Below are positions 18,335 to 27,068 of a stretch of DNA of 35,411 bases, one piece after another. The notes below the pieces were generated by a model. The model was not told where the DNA came from and made no database searches. It worked only from the letters and a program-made list of their open reading frames with translations. The stretch's first letter is position 1; the number at the start of each line of letters is the position of its first letter. The position numbers and the translations under genes are program-made. The stretch is from Bacteroidota bacterium. Its GTDB lineage: Bacteria; Bacteroidota; Bacteroidia; NS11-12g; UBA9320. The stretch covers positions 1 to 35,411 of the forward strand of contig JABIUV010000054.1 in NCBI GenBank assembly GCA_018700895.1. Reading direction: 5' to 3'.

Positions 18335-20110
18335 ATGTCTAACAAATTCAAACAACAAACCAAGTGGTTATTCCTAGTCTTAGGATTATTATTCGTTCAA
18401 CATTCATTCGCCTACAAAAGCACACTTACCCGTCAGATTGCTGGAGAGGACGGTACCGATGCTCGCATAGAAGAAGGCAGTAAACTTTTTGCAGCTAATT
18501 GTGCTTCTTGTCACAAATTGAAAGGAAAACTTGTAGGTCCCGGACTGGAAGGAGTGGTAGATAAGTATGAAGAAGATTGGACTTGGCTCAACGCTTGGAT
18601 CAAAAACAATCAAAAATTAATTAAATCGGGTGACGAAAGAGCGAACGCTATTTATACAGAATACAACAAGTCTGCTATGAATATCTTCGAAAATCTGAGC
18701 GATAAGCAGATTACATCTATACTGATGTGGATAGATAATGGCGGTGATGGTCCAAGTGAAGGTGGTGGTGGACCTATTGATACTCTTGAACCACCAGAGG
18801 TACCAAATTCACTATTCAACAATATCAATTGGGCAGTTGTAGTAATGTGTCTTCTTGTTTTTGTGATACTATTGATGCTCTTCGGGATCTTAGAATTGGT
18901 ATCTAACGTCACAGGAAAAGAAATCATCAATTGGAATAATATCAATGCTTACATGATGTTGGTATTCTTGGTAGGTTTCTTCGGACTTGTACTCTACGAA
19001 TATAGCGTTCACAAGGATTTCTTATTACCACAGAGTGCATCGGAGCACGGAGTAGATATGGACAGAATGATGCAATGGACATTTGCAGCAACTTTGCCGG
19101 TATTCTTCATTACACAATTTTTGTTATTCTTCTTTTCGTTCAAATACAGACAAAAACCAGGAAGAAAAGCATACTTCTTATCACATAACAACAATCTGGA
19201 ATTAGTTTGGACAATAATACCAGCCATAGTACTTGCCATCCTCGTATCAGGCGGTTTCAAGATGTGGAACAAAATATTGAGAAGCGATGCGGGTAAAGAT
19301 GCATTACAGATAGAAGTATTTGCTTATCAATTTGGTTGGAACGCACGTTATCCAGGAGAAGACAATAAACTAGGTAAAGCAAATTATAACCTTATAAACG
19401 GTGTTAATCCACTTGGAGTAGCTAACAGAGAGCACGCTACTGGATTGATTACCGAGCTAGAAGAGGAAATCGTTTCACTCAATGAAGCGATTAGCAGATT
19501 GCCACAAGAAGAAGCCAAACTAAGGTCAACACTAGGTGGTTTGGTAGGTGATGATCGAGATGCACATCTTAGAGAAATTCACTCGTATGAAAGCGGTGAC
19601 GTACTCAATGACCTCAAGCTGACCATAAGAGCACGCAATACGCAGATAGAACGTCTCAAAGGAGCCTTAGCTGCGGCCAAAGGCAGTATGTTTACAGGCG
19701 AAGGAGATGATGACCGAGTAGTACAAGAGATACACTTAGTAAAAGATCAACCCATCACACTCAAGTTTAGAGCAAGAGATGTAATACACTCCGCGTACTT
19801 ACCTTACTTCCGTGCACAAATGAACGTAGTACCGGGATTACCTACAGAGTTTACTTTTAAGCCTATCTTATCTACAGGAGATATGAGAGAAATAAAGGGA
19901 GACCCAGAGTTTGATTACTACTTAGTATGTAACAAGATATGCGGTAACGCTCACTTTAATATGAAAATGAAGGTAGTTGTAGAAGAAAATCAAGCAGCTT
20001 ACGATAAATGGATGAACGAACAGGCAGCATTGTTTGTTAAGAAAGAAGAAACTAAGAACGCGGAAACAGAAAGTACTGAAGAGGGTACTGAAACAGTAGC
20101 ATCAAATTAA
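18335..20110 (+). CDS. coxB: Cytochrome c oxidase subunit II with N-terminal cytochrome c domain and coiled-coil insertion
   Basis: Subunit II takes electrons into the aa3 oxidase through its CuA centre. This 591-residue form has a signal-like segment (11-26) and a class I cytochrome c domain at about 44-135 (heme-binding CASCH at 56-60, likely distal ligand M115). A Gly/Pro linker and membrane segments at about 166-190, 203-222, 250-270 and 288-308 follow, then the cupredoxin domain from 325. CuA ligands are complete: H485, C532, C536, H540, M543. Between the strand FGWNARYPG (333-341) and EIHL (465-468) lies an insertion of about 120 residues with a predicted coiled coil (370-447). The C-terminal 30 residues are Glu/Thr-rich. 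Fusions of cytochrome c to subunit II are usually C-terminal (caa3 type), so the N-terminal placement is notable. coxA follows after 22 nt. Confidence 0.95.
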   Translation: MSNKFKQQTKWLFLVLGLLFVQHSFAYKSTLTRQIAGEDGTDARIEEGSKLFAANCASCHKLKGKLVGPGLEGVVDKYEEDWTWLNAWIKNNQKLIKSGDERANAIYTEYNKSAMNIFENLSDKQITSILMWIDNGGDGPSEGGGGPIDTLEPPEVPNSLFNNINWAVVVMCLLVFVILLMLFGILELVSNVTGKEIINWNNINAYMMLVFLVGFFGLVLYEYSVHKDFLLPQSASEHGVDMDRMMQWTFAATLPVFFITQFLLFFFSFKYRQKPGRKAYFLSHNNNLELVWTIIPAIVLAILVSGGFKMWNKILRSDAGKDALQIEVFAYQFGWNARYPGEDNKLGKANYNLINGVNPLGVANREHATGLITELEEEIVSLNEAISRLPQEEAKLRSTLGGLVGDDRDAHLREIHSYESGDVLNDLKLTIRARNTQIERLKGALAAAKGSMFTGEGDDDRVVQEIHLVKDQPITLKFRARDVIHSAYLPYFRAQMNVVPGLPTEFTFKPILSTGDMREIKGDPEFDYYLVCNKICGNAHFNMKMKVVVEENQAAYDKWMNEQAALFVKKEETKNAETESTEEGTETVASN

Positions 20111-20132: not shown

Positions 20133-22025
20133 ATGAGTACAGCAGTAGCACACGCACACACAGACGATCATCACCACCACGAGGAGTCCTTCATCTCGAA
20201 GTACATCTTTAGTATGGATCACAAGATGATCTCAAAACAATTTTTGATAACAGGTATTATAATGGGGCTTATTGGTATGGGAATGTCTATTGCATTTCGT
20301 TTACAATTGGCATACCCAGATACTTCTTTTCCTATATTAGAATGGCTTTTTGGTAGCAAATGGGCTCCAGATGGTAAATTAGACGCAGGATATTATATGG
20401 CCCTTGTAACCATGCACGGTACTATTATGGTATTTTATGTACTTACAGCAGGACTTAGTGGTACGTTTGCCAATTTATTGCTTCCTTTACAGATAGGAGC
20501 AAGAGATATGGCTTCGCCCTTTATGAATATGTTATCCTACTGGTTCTTTTTCCTGAGTAGCGTAGTTTTACTTTCTTCATTATTTGTAGAAACAGGACCA
20601 GCCTCTGGAGGATGGACTATTTACCCACCGCTTAGTGCATTACCCAAAGCAATGCCTGGTTCGGGAATGGGTATGACATTGTGGTTAGTAGCCATTATTT
20701 TATTCATCGCATCATCATTACTTGGTGGTATCAACTACATAAGTACAGTGCTTAATATGAGAACAAAAGGTATGTCTATGACGAGACTACCTCTTACTGT
20801 TTGGGCGTTGTTCCTTACGGCTGTTCTTGGTTTATTATCTTTCCCTGTATTACTCGGAGGAGGATTACTATTAATGTTTGATAGAGGATTTGGAACAAGT
20901 TTTTACTTATCTGACATATACCTTGGTTCGGCAGGTGCTCTAGAACACACGGGTGGTAGCCCTGTCTTGTTCCAGCATTTATTCTGGTTCTTAGGTCACC
21001 CTGAGGTATATATTATCATTATGCCAGCACTCGGTATCACTTCTGAGATTATAGCTGTAAACTCTCGTAAACCAATATTTGGTTACACAGCAATGGTTAT
21101 ATCACTACTCGGTATTGCATTCCTTTCATTTATCGTATGGGGACACCATATGTTTATTACAGGAATGAATCCTTTACTAGGAGCAGTATTCTTGGTAACT
21201 ACCTTGATAATTGCTGTACCTTCTGCCGTAAAGACATTCAATTACCTCGCTACATTGTGGAGAGGTAACATTCGATTCACAAATGCAATGATGTTTGCTA
21301 TCGGACTGGTTTCGTTCTTTATATCGGGTGGTCTTACCGGTATTTTCTTAGGAAATGCTACGCTTGACATTCAATTACACGATACATACTTCGTAGTAGG
21401 TCACTTCCATATTGTAATGGGTTGTGCCGCAATATTTGGTATGTTAGCTGGTATTTATCACTGGTTCCCAAAAATGTTTGGTAGATTAATGAATAAGCCT
21501 TTAGGTTACATTCACTTCTGGTTAACATTTGCATCAGCATACTTGGTATTTTTTCCGATGCACTTCATTGGTTTGGCAGGTGTACCACGTAGATACTATG
21601 CATTTACATTATTGCCTGAGTACGGACAGTGGGCAGATGTAAACGTATTGATGACACTAGCGGCTATACTCGGTGGTATTGCTCAGTTAGTTTTTATTTA
21701 CAATTTCTTCTCTAGCATATTCATCGGTAAAAAATCTACGGAAAACCCTTGGGAGGCTAATACATTAGAGTGGACTACTCCAGTAGAACGTATTCACGGT
21801 AACTGGCCAGGTGCTATTCCTACCGTATATCGTTGGGCGTATGATTACAGTAACCCAGCTTACGATGAAGATTTCAAAATGCAAAATGTTCCTGACGAAA
21901 GTCACGTAGTAGAGTTGTTTGAAACCAACACAGGCACTGCACCATCTACCAAAGATAAACCAGAGACTGAAACAGTTAGTTTCTTCACCCTCATACGAAA
22001 TTGGTTTAAACCACGCACTGTCTAA
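20133..22025 (+). CDS. coxA: Cytochrome c oxidase subunit I
   Basis: Catalytic heme-copper subunit of an A-type proton-pumping oxidase, 630 residues and about 12 membrane helices. All metal ligands are present: H95 (low-spin heme, in TMHGT), H289 with E291 and the cross-linking Y293 (GHPEVY), H338 and H339 (CuB), H424 (heme a3) and H426 (low-spin heme). D-channel aspartate D125 (GARDMASP) and K-channel lysine K367 (VPSAVKTFN) are also present, so it is of the A1 type. The N-terminus is His-rich (AHAHTDDHHHHEE, residues 7-18). A strong terminator follows its stop codon, separating coxB-coxA from the assembly genes. Confidence 0.98.
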   Translation: MSTAVAHAHTDDHHHHEESFISKYIFSMDHKMISKQFLITGIIMGLIGMGMSIAFRLQLAYPDTSFPILEWLFGSKWAPDGKLDAGYYMALVTMHGTIMVFYVLTAGLSGTFANLLLPLQIGARDMASPFMNMLSYWFFFLSSVVLLSSLFVETGPASGGWTIYPPLSALPKAMPGSGMGMTLWLVAIILFIASSLLGGINYISTVLNMRTKGMSMTRLPLTVWALFLTAVLGLLSFPVLLGGGLLLMFDRGFGTSFYLSDIYLGSAGALEHTGGSPVLFQHLFWFLGHPEVYIIIMPALGITSEIIAVNSRKPIFGYTAMVISLLGIAFLSFIVWGHHMFITGMNPLLGAVFLVTTLIIAVPSAVKTFNYLATLWRGNIRFTNAMMFAIGLVSFFISGGLTGIFLGNATLDIQLHDTYFVVGHFHIVMGCAAIFGMLAGIYHWFPKMFGRLMNKPLGYIHFWLTFASAYLVFFPMHFIGLAGVPRRYYAFTLLPEYGQWADVNVLMTLAAILGGIAQLVFIYNFFSSIFIGKKSTENPWEANTLEWTTPVERIHGNWPGAIPTVYRWAYDYSNPAYDEDFKMQNVPDESHVVELFETNTGTAPSTKDKPETETVSFFTLIRNWFKPRTV

Positions 22026-22095: not shown

Positions 22096-23109
22096 ATGGG
22101 ACACACACGCTACCTGAAACTGAATTGGTTATCTACCTTTTTCATTTTCATGTTATTTGTAATCGGCGGTTTGGTGCGTAGTACCGGAAGTGGTATGGGT
22201 TGCCCCGACTGGCCCAAGTGTTTTGGAGAATACGTTCCTCCTACTTCTGTCGCTGAACTTCCATTGGAATACGAAGATTTCTTTAAGGTTCAACGTATCA
22301 AAAAAACCAAACGTTTTGCAGCATTGCTGCGTAGCTTTGGAATGGAGGATAAGGCGGAACAAATCTTAAACAACTCGGTCTTAGAAGAAACTCATCAGTT
22401 CAACGTAGTAAAAGCCTATGTAGAATACATCAACAGATTGTGGGGAGCGATAACAGGGATAATTGTTTTAATGTGTTTTCTGTTTAGCTTAAAGTATATA
22501 CGGCAAAATCCGAAGGTATTTTGGCTTACGCTGTTGGGATTAGTATTTGTGTTTTTCAATGCACTACTAGGTGCAGTAGTTGTGAATAGTAATCTCATAG
22601 GCGGGATCGTAACGGTACATTTCATTGCTGCCTTTGCCAGTATTTGTTTTTTTATACTCGCTCGAAGATATGCTGCAGGAATAGATTACGGCACCATCGA
22701 TTCTAAACTCAAAACAGTCAGCATATTGCTTTTGGCTTTGAGCAGCATTCAAGTTATACTGGGTGCAGAGGTACGCGAGCTGTATGACTTGCTACCCGTG
22801 TTATCACAGATCAATGAAAAAATAGAAGCGATGTATCCTACTTTTCAGTGGCACGCTGTATTAGGTGCTGTGATACTAGCTGCTAGTATTTATCAATTCA
22901 TCTACGCTGGTAAGAGTACTTTTTGGGGTAAAAATTCACGATGGATAATGGTGATGGCTATGGCTCAAATTATTTGGGGACCGTTGGCATTGATAGAGGC
23001 TACTGCATCTACTTCAAAACTTTTCCATATTAGCTTAGGTGCCGGTATATTTGTGTTACAATTTTATATTTGCACTTCGTTTCTAAAATCAGCAAAACAA
23101 GCAACATAA
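22096..23109 (+). CDS. ctaA: Heme A synthase (COX15/CtaA)
   Basis: Inner-membrane enzyme oxidising heme O to heme A, which the oxidase needs. The 337 residues make about eight membrane segments in two halves. The conserved GCPDWPKC (C36 and C42) is next to the first helix. Heme ligands H175 (VTVHFI), H253 (QWHAVLG) and H311 (LFHISLG) are present. The position of the fourth, N-terminal histidine is N113 in EYINRLWG; as far as I recall this substitution is usual in Bacteroidota members, so it does not imply loss of function. The N-terminal loop (45-105) is longer than in Bacillus CtaA. ctaB follows with 19 nt between. Confidence 0.94.
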   Translation: MGHTRYLKLNWLSTFFIFMLFVIGGLVRSTGSGMGCPDWPKCFGEYVPPTSVAELPLEYEDFFKVQRIKKTKRFAALLRSFGMEDKAEQILNNSVLEETHQFNVVKAYVEYINRLWGAITGIIVLMCFLFSLKYIRQNPKVFWLTLLGLVFVFFNALLGAVVVNSNLIGGIVTVHFIAAFASICFFILARRYAAGIDYGTIDSKLKTVSILLLALSSIQVILGAEVRELYDLLPVLSQINEKIEAMYPTFQWHAVLGAVILAASIYQFIYAGKSTFWGKNSRWIMVMAMAQIIWGPLALIEATASTSKLFHISLGAGIFVLQFYICTSFLKSAKQAT

Positions 23110-23128
23110 TCCGTTGAAAACAGCCACC

Positions 23129-24007
23129 ATGCAAACTGAATCTATTGGTCTCAAAGCCAAGCTTCAAGACTATAGCCAACTGATCAAATTCAGATTGACA
23201 TTTACGGTTGTATTGTCATCTATCTTCGGCTATCTCATAGGTTACACAGGTGAATTAAACTGGACAGAACTCGTTGCACTAATCATTGGTGGTTTTCTAG
23301 TAGTTGCTTCATCCAATGGATTAAACCAAATTGTAGAAAAAGACTTTGATATCTTGATGACCCGTACCGAAAACCGTCCGCTCGCTCAACGAAGGATGGC
23401 CTTACTAGAAGCAGCGATTTTCTGTGTGATTACAGGTACTGTTGGGATTTACTTATTAGGTCACTACCTCAATACATATGCAGCTATATTGGGTATCGGT
23501 TCGCTGATTAGTTACGCTTTTATATACACACCACTCAAGCGAGTATCGAGTATTGCTGTTTACATAGGAGCTGTACCGGGAGCTATTCCTCCTTTATTAG
23601 GATGGGTGGCAGCAACAGGACGTTTTTCTGCAGCAGCAGGTATACTTTTTCTTATCCAGTTCGTATGGCAGTTCCCTCATTTTTGGGCCATTGCTTGGGT
23701 GCTAGATGATGATTACAAAAAAGCAGGTTACAGATTGCTTCCTCTACGCTCTGGGAAATCAAAAAAAACGGCTATGGTTATACTTATTTCAACCATTTTG
23801 TTGATACCCATAAGTGTACTGCCGTATCTTATCAATATGAGTGGGGTACTAAGCGTTACACTCTTATTGGGTGGCTCACTTGCTCTAATGTATATGGCAA
23901 TTAAACTTTACAAATCACTATCCATAAAAGATGCAAAAAGTTTGATGTTTGCATCCATATTGTACAACCCTTTTGTTCTCGTAGTGTTACTAATAGACAA
24001 GATATAA
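23129..24007 (+). CDS. ctaB: Protoheme IX farnesyltransferase (heme O synthase)
   Basis: UbiA-family membrane prenyltransferase that adds the farnesyl group to protoheme, making heme O for CtaA. The 292 residues carry about eight to nine helices. The first Asp-rich motif is NQIVEKDFDILMTRTENRPL (about 70-90), and the second conserved region reads WVLDDDYKKAGYRLLPL. ATG 23129 is preferred over an upstream TTG (23114) because it is the stronger codon and gives the common length. Its stop TAA shares its last base with the next ATG (TAATG), so translation is coupled to the first subunit III gene. Confidence 0.95.
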   Translation: MQTESIGLKAKLQDYSQLIKFRLTFTVVLSSIFGYLIGYTGELNWTELVALIIGGFLVVASSNGLNQIVEKDFDILMTRTENRPLAQRRMALLEAAIFCVITGTVGIYLLGHYLNTYAAILGIGSLISYAFIYTPLKRVSSIAVYIGAVPGAIPPLLGWVAATGRFSAAAGILFLIQFVWQFPHFWAIAWVLDDDYKKAGYRLLPLRSGKSKKTAMVILISTILLIPISVLPYLINMSGVLSVTLLLGGSLALMYMAIKLYKSLSIKDAKSLMFASILYNPFVLVVLLIDKI

Positions 24008-25483: not shown

Positions 25484-25840
25484 ATGTCTTCACATACAAA
25501 TAATAACGTAGATATACACGATACAGAGAATTACGACCCTACGACTTGGGTTCCCAAGGTAGAAAGTCACGGTACTAAAGATATTTGGGGCAGATTTTGG
25601 ATTCTTTCCTTCTTGACCATTGCAGATATCGTTGCATACTTTGTATGGCCTCCAAGTATGAGTAGAAATATATTCTTCATCGTAATGGGAGTGCTCAAAG
25701 CGTGGTTTATCGTAGGGACATTTATGCACATGAAGCACGAGCACAAAAAGCTTGGCTATATGATCATACTTCCTATGGCTTTCATCATCTTCTTCCTATT
25801 CTGGATGATGTACGAAGGAAACTTTTGGGGAACAATTTAA
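25484..25840 (+). CDS. Cytochrome c oxidase subunit IV
   Basis: Small membrane subunit of 118 residues. The soluble N-terminus (VDIHDTENYDPTTWVPK) is followed by three hydrophobic segments: about 41-59, 61-83 and 91-109. GVLKAWFIVGTFMHMKHE is the typical prokaryotic subunit IV (caa3_CtaG/COX4 pro) signature, with HMKHE at the membrane edge. Its function is stabilisation of the oxidase. It lies between the second subunit III gene and the SCO gene (21 nt). Confidence 0.92.
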   Translation: MSSHTNNNVDIHDTENYDPTTWVPKVESHGTKDIWGRFWILSFLTIADIVAYFVWPPSMSRNIFFIVMGVLKAWFIVGTFMHMKHEHKKLGYMIILPMAFIIFFLFWMMYEGNFWGTI

Positions 25841-25861: not shown

Positions 25862-26536
25862 ATGAAACAATCTACTGGCAGACGTATTCTAGTAGTATCC
25901 GTAATCTCTGTGATATTGGGATTACCTGTATTATTTGCCCTTTTACTCAAAAAATCCGAAACTGGATATTACGAACTTCCTGTTTTTACAACCGATGAAA
26001 TGGGTAAAGAAGTGCCTTACATCATTGATGAGTTTGAGCTAACTGATCAAAACGGAAAACCTTTTAGTCGCGACAGCATTGGGGATAAAGTTTTTATTGC
26101 CAACTTCTTTTTTGCATCGTGTCCAGATGTATGTCCCACGATCAATGGGCATATGAAAATTGCTTCGCAAAAATTAGAAAATAGTACGGATGTATTATTC
26201 TTATCACACACGGTAGACCCATACAATGACAGTGTGCCTATATTACGAGCGTATGCAGACAAGTTTGAGGTGAACGACAAGCAGTGGAAATTTTTAACCG
26301 GCAAAAAAAGTACGATATACCACCTGGCAAAGGATAGTTATAAAGCGGTAATACAAGAAGTGCCAGACACCAACAACTTTATCCATAGTGAAAAAATTAT
26401 GTTGGTAGACAAAGATTTCCATGTAAGAGGTATATACGACGGGCTAAAAATCACTGAGGTTATGGAAATGATAAAAGATGCTCGATTTTTACTGAAAGTA
26501 TACAAAGATGAAGAAGCCATAAAAGAAGATGAATAA
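25862..26536 (+). CDS. SCO-family copper chaperone
   Basis: Thioredoxin-fold protein of 224 residues, anchored by an N-terminal helix (about 9-28) with the domain in the periplasm. It carries the CPDVC copper site (C87, C91) in FFFASCPDVCPT and a histidine in NFIHSEKIM, the third copper ligand position. SCO proteins deliver copper to CuA of subunit II or reduce its cysteines. Context with subunits II and IV fits exactly. The gene overlaps the DUF420 start by 8 nt. Confidence 0.94.
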   Translation: MKQSTGRRILVVSVISVILGLPVLFALLLKKSETGYYELPVFTTDEMGKEVPYIIDEFELTDQNGKPFSRDSIGDKVFIANFFFASCPDVCPTINGHMKIASQKLENSTDVLFLSHTVDPYNDSVPILRAYADKFEVNDKQWKFLTGKKSTIYHLAKDSYKAVIQEVPDTNNFIHSEKIMLVDKDFHVRGIYDGLKITEVMEMIKDARFLLKVYKDEEAIKEDE

Positions 26537-27068
26537 AATAAGCGACAAGACATTTTTCAGAATAGCATTAGTACTGAGTATTGTGGTATTCGTACTAGTA
26601 GTATTACTCAACAAGCGTGTACTCAATCCACCTACTGAATTCCCAGACTTTATCTATAGATTGCCATTGCTTCACGCCATTATCAATGGTACATGTGCTG
26701 TTTTGCTTGTCTTATCACTCCGAGCCATCAAGGCGAAAAATATAGCACGTCACAAAGCGTTGAACATTACCACATTTGGTTTATCAGCACTTTTTTTGAT
26801 CAGTTATGTCGTGTATCACTTTTTTGTGCCGGAAACTACATTCGGAGGTGAGGGAATTATACGTTATGTGTATTACATTATCCTCACCACACACATCATT
26901 CTAGCCGCTGTGGTGTTACCACTTATATTATTATCTTTCTGGTACGCACTTAATCAAAAAATAGATAAGCATCGTAAGATTGTGCGATTTACTTTTCCTA
27001 TATGGCTTTATGTAGCCGTAACAGGTGTAATTGTGTATCTCATGATATCTCCTTACTACTCTTTCTGA
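26529..27068 (+). CDS. DUF420 membrane protein (CtaM-like)
   Basis: Membrane protein of 179 residues with five hydrophobic segments and conserved histidines in LPLLHAIING, ARHKALNIT, YHFFVPE, TTHIILAAVV and DKHRKIVR. This pattern matches DUF420. The family is usually linked to cytochrome aa3 oxidase; CtaM in Bacillus and Staphylococcus is needed for oxidase maturation. A role in heme or copper insertion here is inferred from family and context. It overlaps the SCO gene by 8 nt. Confidence 0.9.
   Translation: MNKISDKTFFRIALVLSIVVFVLVVLLNKRVLNPPTEFPDFIYRLPLLHAIINGTCAVLLVLSLRAIKAKNIARHKALNITTFGLSALFLISYVVYHFFVPETTFGGEGIIRYVYYIILTTHIILAAVVLPLILLSFWYALNQKIDKHRKIVRFTFPIWLYVAVTGVIVYLMISPYYSF

Follow-up and report, generated by a model that had tools for sequence, protein, structure and literature searches.

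Architecture of CoxB

The window, that is, the whole stretch of 35,411 nucleotides analysed here, carries a cox gene cluster in which coxB is followed downstream by coxA and assembly genes, as expected for an oxidase neighbourhood (Table 1). CoxB carries a cytochrome c domain at its N-terminus. Residues 45–134 match the class I cytochrome c profile PF00034 (Pfam, E 6.4e-12), and both the CXXCH motif and the methionine ligand (Met115 in CoxB) were invariant across 101 aligned cytochrome domains from CoxB and from ActA of alternative complex III (ACIII). The initial annotation had placed a CASCH haem motif at residues 56–60 in front of the membrane helices, and the open reading frame, the extent of the PF00034 match and Met115 confirm this placement. 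Four membrane helices are predicted C-terminal of the cytochrome c domain, and the extra helix pair of CoxB is present too in Bacteroidia CoxB proteins that have no cytochrome.

The CuA ligands H485, C532, C536, H540 and M543 were invariant in 13 CoxB sequences, indicating that CoxB should be a genuine cytochrome c oxidase subunit II. Neither the sequence nor Pfam revealed a C-terminal cytochrome c domain in CoxB, its sole CXXCH motif and sole cytochrome c match being those at residues 45–134, and CoxB does not have the caa3 arrangement, in which subunit II ends in a cytochrome c domain. In a Pfam profile search, PF00116 (COX2) matched neither CoxB nor anything else in the genome, probably because an insertion splits the CuA domain, and CoxB-like proteins could be missed or misnamed by automatic annotation.

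Table 1. Features of coxB and of the cox gene cluster in the window.
Feature	Coordinates	Strand	Basis
coxB, cytochrome c oxidase subunit II with N-terminal cytochrome c domain, 591 aa	18335..20110	+	ORF and translation; Pfam Cytochrom_C and COX2_TM; PDB matches 6btm_A (ActA) and COX2 chains
Probable Sec signal peptide, CoxB residues 1–26	18335..18412	+	Inferred from the hydrophobic N-terminus in the sequence
Class I monohaem cytochrome c domain, ActA N-terminal type, CoxB residues 45–134	18467..18736	+	PF00034; 6btm_A match; domain trees
Haem-binding CASCH motif, CoxB residues 56–60	18500..18514	+	Sequence; alignment of ActA/CoxB domains
CoxB Met115, probable axial haem ligand	18677..18679	+	Invariant in 101 aligned ActA/CoxB domains
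Extra transmembrane helix pair, CoxB about residues 160–193 and 203–227	18812..19015	+	Low-confidence model; sequence comparison
Standard COX2 transmembrane region, CoxB residues 228–303	19016..19243	+	PF02790
Helical insertion in CuA domain, CoxB about residues 366–452, ~88 residues net	19430..19690	+	Loop lengths across 81 CoxB; confident predicted helices
CuA domain C-terminal half, ligand positions H485, C532, C536, H540, M543	19727..19984	+	Invariant columns; 2yev_B match
coxA, cytochrome c oxidase subunit I	20133..22025	+	PF00115, E 2.5e-139; sole COX1 match in genome
ctaA, haem A synthase (COX15-CtaA)	22096..23109	+	Pfam
ctaB-like UbiA prenyltransferase, haem O synthase by context	23114..24007	+	Pfam
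coxC, first subunit III-like protein, 196 aa	24007..24597	+	PF00510
coxC, second subunit III-like protein, 281 aa	24601..25446	+	PF00510
coxD, prokaryotic subunit IV	25484..25840	+	PF03626
sco, SCO1/SenC-family copper chaperone	25862..26536	+	PF02630
DUF420 membrane protein, end of cox cluster	26529..27068	+	PF04238

A helical insertion in the CuA domain varies independently of the fusion

Alignment with 80 other CoxB proteins showed that the loop at residues 342–464 spans 123 residues, compared to typically 35–36 in insertion-free CoxB, indicating a net insertion of ~88 residues (roughly 366–452). The helical segment that had been annotated in this region was found, whereas its proposed size of about 120 extra residues was reduced to ~88 by the loop alignment. 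In the AlphaFold2 model of CoxB (mean pLDDT 51.8, pTM 0.26), of which the insertion helices are the usable part, helices are predicted at residues 365–398, 405–419 and 422–446, with a pLDDT of about 71–90 over residues 371–440. According to this model, the insertion is likely to form a helical hairpin, and a coiled-coil hairpin is plausible.

Loops of 94–150 residues were observed in f1, the family of the window genome, in its sister family f2, and in families f38, f6, f10, f13, f15, f20 and f52. Many of the longer-loop CoxB share a similar basic helix before a DD motif, which reads ARNTQIERL in the window CoxB. The insertion occurs without the fusion in f2, f6, f10, f13, f20 and f52, and the fusion occurs without the insertion in f12, f18, f50 and f58, demonstrating that the two traits vary independently. 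At least five changes are needed to explain the insertion state on a tree of the CoxB core. The CuA insertion is a lineage trait separate from the fusion; that it docks to ACIII is a guess.

The CoxB domain is missing from the ActA of the same genome

The best PDB match of CoxB residues 17–197 was to residues 21–204 of Flavobacterium johnsoniae ActA (6btm_A, E 3.6e-21), not to an oxidase, with the next separate cytochrome c match at E 5.8e-6. The domain thus resembles the ActA sixth-haem domain more closely than other cytochromes c, but it sits on CoxB instead of being fused to the pentahaem part of ActA. In F. johnsoniae, ActA carries six haems; the last of these lies in an N-terminal domain, anchored to the membrane and mobile, which was unresolved by cryo-EM and has been proposed to shuttle electrons to the aa3 oxidase (PMC8552683). 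ActA is essential for aa3 activity in this species and ActE is not, and the ActA of Rhodothermus marinus, which works with a caa3 oxidase, has no sixth-haem domain (PMC8552683). The extra domain of ActA appears to functionally replace the cytochrome c of subunit IIc (PMC5928083).

As stated in the initial annotation, act genes are not adjacent to coxB; instead, a search via NrfD (PF03916) led to a complete act operon (L046) on another contig, C8, of the same genome. It encodes a five-haem ActA, ActB with Fe-S domains, an NrfD-type ActC, ActD (PF11821), a monohaem ActE and an ActF-like membrane protein, which has no Pfam match and was assigned by position. This ActA comprises 309 aa with five CXXCH motifs, and its residues 38–309 match only residues 171–444 of 6btm_A (PDB search, E 9.5e-74), so that CoxB and ActA together cover F. 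johnsoniae ActA. The sixth, mobile N-terminal cytochrome c domain of the F. johnsoniae type is absent from it. Pairwise alignment with f2 ActA revealed a clean excision, in which the signal peptide is followed directly by the SFYS linker and the membrane helix. In a domain tree with few columns and weak deep branches, small cytochromes fell mostly outside the group of ActA and CoxB domains. On these sequence comparisons, we assign the CoxB domain as the counterpart of the N-terminal sixth-haem domain that ActA bears in F. johnsoniae and in most Bacteroidia, and that ActA has lost in f1. An earlier suggestion that it might stand in for the ACIII cytochrome domain is hereby supported, as the ActA of this genome lacks exactly that domain.

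Two further subunits encoded in this operon carry C-terminal additions. ActE (L046:9988-11052, G000:C8; 354 aa) has a C-terminal OmpA-like domain (PF00691, E 5.3e-8), which may make it a peptidoglycan-binding subunit of ACIII. ActE of genome G009 is equally long (354 aa), and G011, from the same genus, and G023 have an ordinary ActE of ~220 aa. ActD (L046:9015-9983, G000:C8; 322 aa) has a C-terminal extension that weakly matches the helix-hairpin-helix profile PF14520 (E 3.1e-5, below the curated cut-off).

A COX1 profile search identified a single haem-copper oxidase in the genome, which has no match to a bd oxidase. Searches for cytochrome c matches found no ordinary soluble class I cytochrome c in the genome, the other matches being ActE, a dihaem peroxidase-like protein, a 172-aa protein without CXXCH and a ~458-aa protein with one CXXCH. 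This is compatible with the additional suggestion that the domain replaces a soluble cytochrome c. Given this set of oxidases and cytochromes, oxygen respiration should run from ACIII through the CoxB domain to CuA and haem a. The same-genus genome G011 (99% complete) encodes a five-haem ActA and has no CoxB or COX1 match, so that either the assembly has a gap or the oxidase has been lost.

The domain is present on ActA, CoxB or both across Bacteroidia

Both the cytochrome fusion and the CuA insertion were present in all 25 sampled f1 CoxB with an intact N-terminus, one of which lies on a 2.4 Mb contig, so that neither chance nor misassembly accounts for the architecture. The view that these features are unusual was therefore not borne out: they are shared across f1, and each also occurs separately in other Bacteroidia families. 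Every f1 ActA found had five CXXCH motifs or was shortened by a gap or a stop. The f2 ActA proteins have six CXXCH motifs, or seven owing to a tandem duplicate, and f2 CoxB has no cytochrome domain.

Our surveys covered 217 Bacteroidia genomes overall, with ActA read in 65 of these and in 80 more; the genomes are a non-random sample in which fused ones were sought. In the 65 genomes with both genes read, the domain was located on ActA only (26 genomes), on CoxB only (22) or on both (17), and none had it on neither. The CoxB-only state was found in f1, f18, f57 and one f50 genome, and both copies in f12, f38, most of f50, f58, f19, f55 and one f21 genome. Among the 80 further genomes sampled for ActA, nearly all kept the ActA domain. 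In G085, one ActA piece lacks the domain and a further copy, on a different contig, seems to have it; G090 gave a weak ActA match only. A phylum-wide search returned no fused CoxB outside the class Bacteroidia among the matches listed.

The 17 genomes with both copies refute a strictly reciprocal exchange of the domain between the two proteins, and an independent-pairs test of ActA loss versus CoxB gain was not significant, with too few pairs.

Two N-terminal cytochrome c domains in tandem (seven CXXCH) were observed in ActA at L080:10890-12551, L085:9508-11229 and L112:1078-2709, the hosts being G037 and G049 (f2) and G212 (f34). In f21, the CoxB of G249 (L147) is fused and groups with f12 CoxB; its relative G152, a genome of the same group, has an ordinary CoxB, and horizontal transfer is a possible source of the fused G249 CoxB.

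Origin of the fusion

In a domain tree of 88 rows and 106 columns with many weak forks, f1 CoxB and f2 ActA domains formed one group (support 97/98), and ActA and CoxB domains of the same genome were sisters in f55, f58 and f19. Mean identity of the f1 CoxB domain was 0.47 to f2 ActA and 0.47–0.48 to f12 ActA or CoxB; with identity to f2 ActA no higher than to f12, the f1–f2 link rests on the tree. AU tests, based on few columns, rejected a single clade of all CoxB domains (log-likelihood difference 308, p-AU 2.9e-47) as well as a joint grouping of f1, f12, f38 and f21 CoxB domains (p-AU 0.0017); a grouping of f1 with f12 alone was not firmly rejected (p 0.068). These tests reject a single CoxB fusion with a vertically evolving domain. 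On the CoxB core tree, built without the domain and with weak key branches, the fused state had to change at least seven times and the state of the ActA domain four times, and the fused families f1, f12, f38, f18, f50 and f58 clustered in a single large group within which f2 was nested.

Two histories could account for these patterns. At about even odds, the CoxB fusion is old within the large clade, the copies were homogenised within lineages, and reciprocal loss removed the ActA copy in f1 and the CoxB copy in f2. The single large group of fused families with f2 nested inside it, the sister relationships of same-genome domains in f55, f58 and f19, and the f2 CoxB, which retains a signal-like N-terminus and linker without the domain, all agree with such a history, whereas the weakness of the key core-tree branches counts against it, as does the match of third positions of identical codons between same-genome copies at only ~46–64%, with no recent gene conversion seen. 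Recent gene conversion between ActA and CoxB copies is likewise not supported as a process in its own right, third codon positions being saturated. Somewhat short of even odds, the domain was copied from ActA to CoxB several separate times, in line with the rejection of one origin both for all CoxB domains and for those of f1, f12, f38 and f21, and with the at least seven changes of the fused state; however, the same tree would be expected from old gene conversion, or from shared selection on a domain with the same docking partners.

Proposed function of the CoxB domain

We propose, with a probability of roughly 0.78, that the CoxB domain acts as a membrane-tethered shuttle from ACIII to CuA, formed by an ActA-type domain that was lost from ActA in f1. 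Most likely, the domain relocated from complex III to complex IV. From its sequence we infer that the domain would attach haem, dock, transfer electrons and be mobile. It would accept an electron where the ACIII haem wire ends, at ActA haem V or at ActE, then shift or lean across a short distance and pass the electron on to CuA of its own subunit, from where it would pass to haem a and O2, and free cytochrome c would not be needed.

This proposal is in agreement with the finding that one genome encodes both a complete act operon and just one haem-copper oxidase, and with the occurrence of the domain on ActA and/or CoxB in 65 of 65 genomes with invariant CXXCH and Met. Against this stands that all of this support comes from sequence and that, even in F. 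johnsoniae, mobility and the shuttle role have the status of a proposal. Moreover, the two locations are not simply exclusive given the 17 genomes with both copies and the non-significant independent-pairs test, and the link of f1 to f2 rests on the tree, where a grouping of f1 with f12 CoxB is not firmly rejected (p 0.068).

A less likely arrangement would be a fixed, caa3-like conduit, in which the domain is permanently docked against CuA and receives electrons from ActE, making it a port of entry instead of a mobile shuttle. The f1 combination of a five-haem ActA with a CoxB cytochrome is logically the same as that of R. marinus, whose ActA is also without the sixth haem, and where the cytochrome c of caa3 subunit II is thought to accept electrons from ActE (PMC5928083, PMC8552683). 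However, the CoxB domain is of the ActA type and not of the C-terminal caa3 type, it is tied via a linker of about 25 residues and extra membrane helices at the opposite end of CoxB, and the ActA version is mobile enough to be invisible by cryo-EM. A domain off the main electron flow, mainly serving another acceptor or assembly, is very improbable. In its favour, ActE of F. johnsoniae, likewise a monohaem domain, is not required for aa3 activity (PMC8552683), so the path can include a haem that is not essential. Against it, each of the 65 genomes retains the domain on ActA, CoxB or both, its haem ligands are invariant, and no alternative path to oxygen is evident in the window genome.

Returning to the tethered shuttle, we lean towards a more general reading in which the shuttle between ACIII and aa3 oxidase in Bacteroidia is an exchangeable module that, more than once, either switched from complex III to complex IV or was copied and then lost from one of them, the rule being that at least one complex carries it. 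If so, the position of the domain would indicate, lineage by lineage, the wiring of the supercomplex. The relocation in f1 represents a natural domain swap, and thereby a natural experiment on the wiring of ACIII and oxidase. It argues that the domain is the working link between the two complexes and that tethering between them matters, and not which of them holds the domain, which bears on how ACIII passes electrons to the oxidase. While caa3 fusions with a C-terminal cytochrome and the mobile domain of ActA are known, our search of the open-access literature (subscription papers being outside its scope) found no description of an ActA-type domain at the CoxB N-terminus together with loss of the ActA copy.

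Comparison with known respiratory systems

The closest counterpart in domain type is the ACIII-aa3 supercomplex of F. johnsoniae (6BTM), in which a cytochrome c domain of the same kind is likewise linked to a membrane helix. Both genomes also encode ACIII together with an aa3 oxidase. In F. johnsoniae the domain resides on ActA, whereas in the window genome it is found on CoxB and ActA is down to five haems. The ACIII-caa3 system of R. marinus shares with the window genome a five-haem ActA and an extra cytochrome c on oxidase subunit II. Its oxidase is, however, of the caa3 type with the cytochrome c at the subunit II C-terminus, and the cytochrome of the window CoxB is N-terminal and of the ActA type.

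The COX2 membrane region and CuA domain of the window CoxB align with those of subunit IIc of the Thermus thermophilus caa3 oxidase (2YEV), which, unlike CoxB, has a C-terminal cytochrome c and neither an ActA-type domain nor the helical insertion. Among Bacteroidia, the CoxB proteins of f12, f18, f38, f50, f58 and others carry an N-terminal ActA-type cytochrome c domain as in the window CoxB. In contrast to f1, the families f12, f38 and f58 and most of f50 also retain the ActA copy, and CoxB of f12, f18, f50 and f58 differs from the window CoxB in having no CuA insertion.
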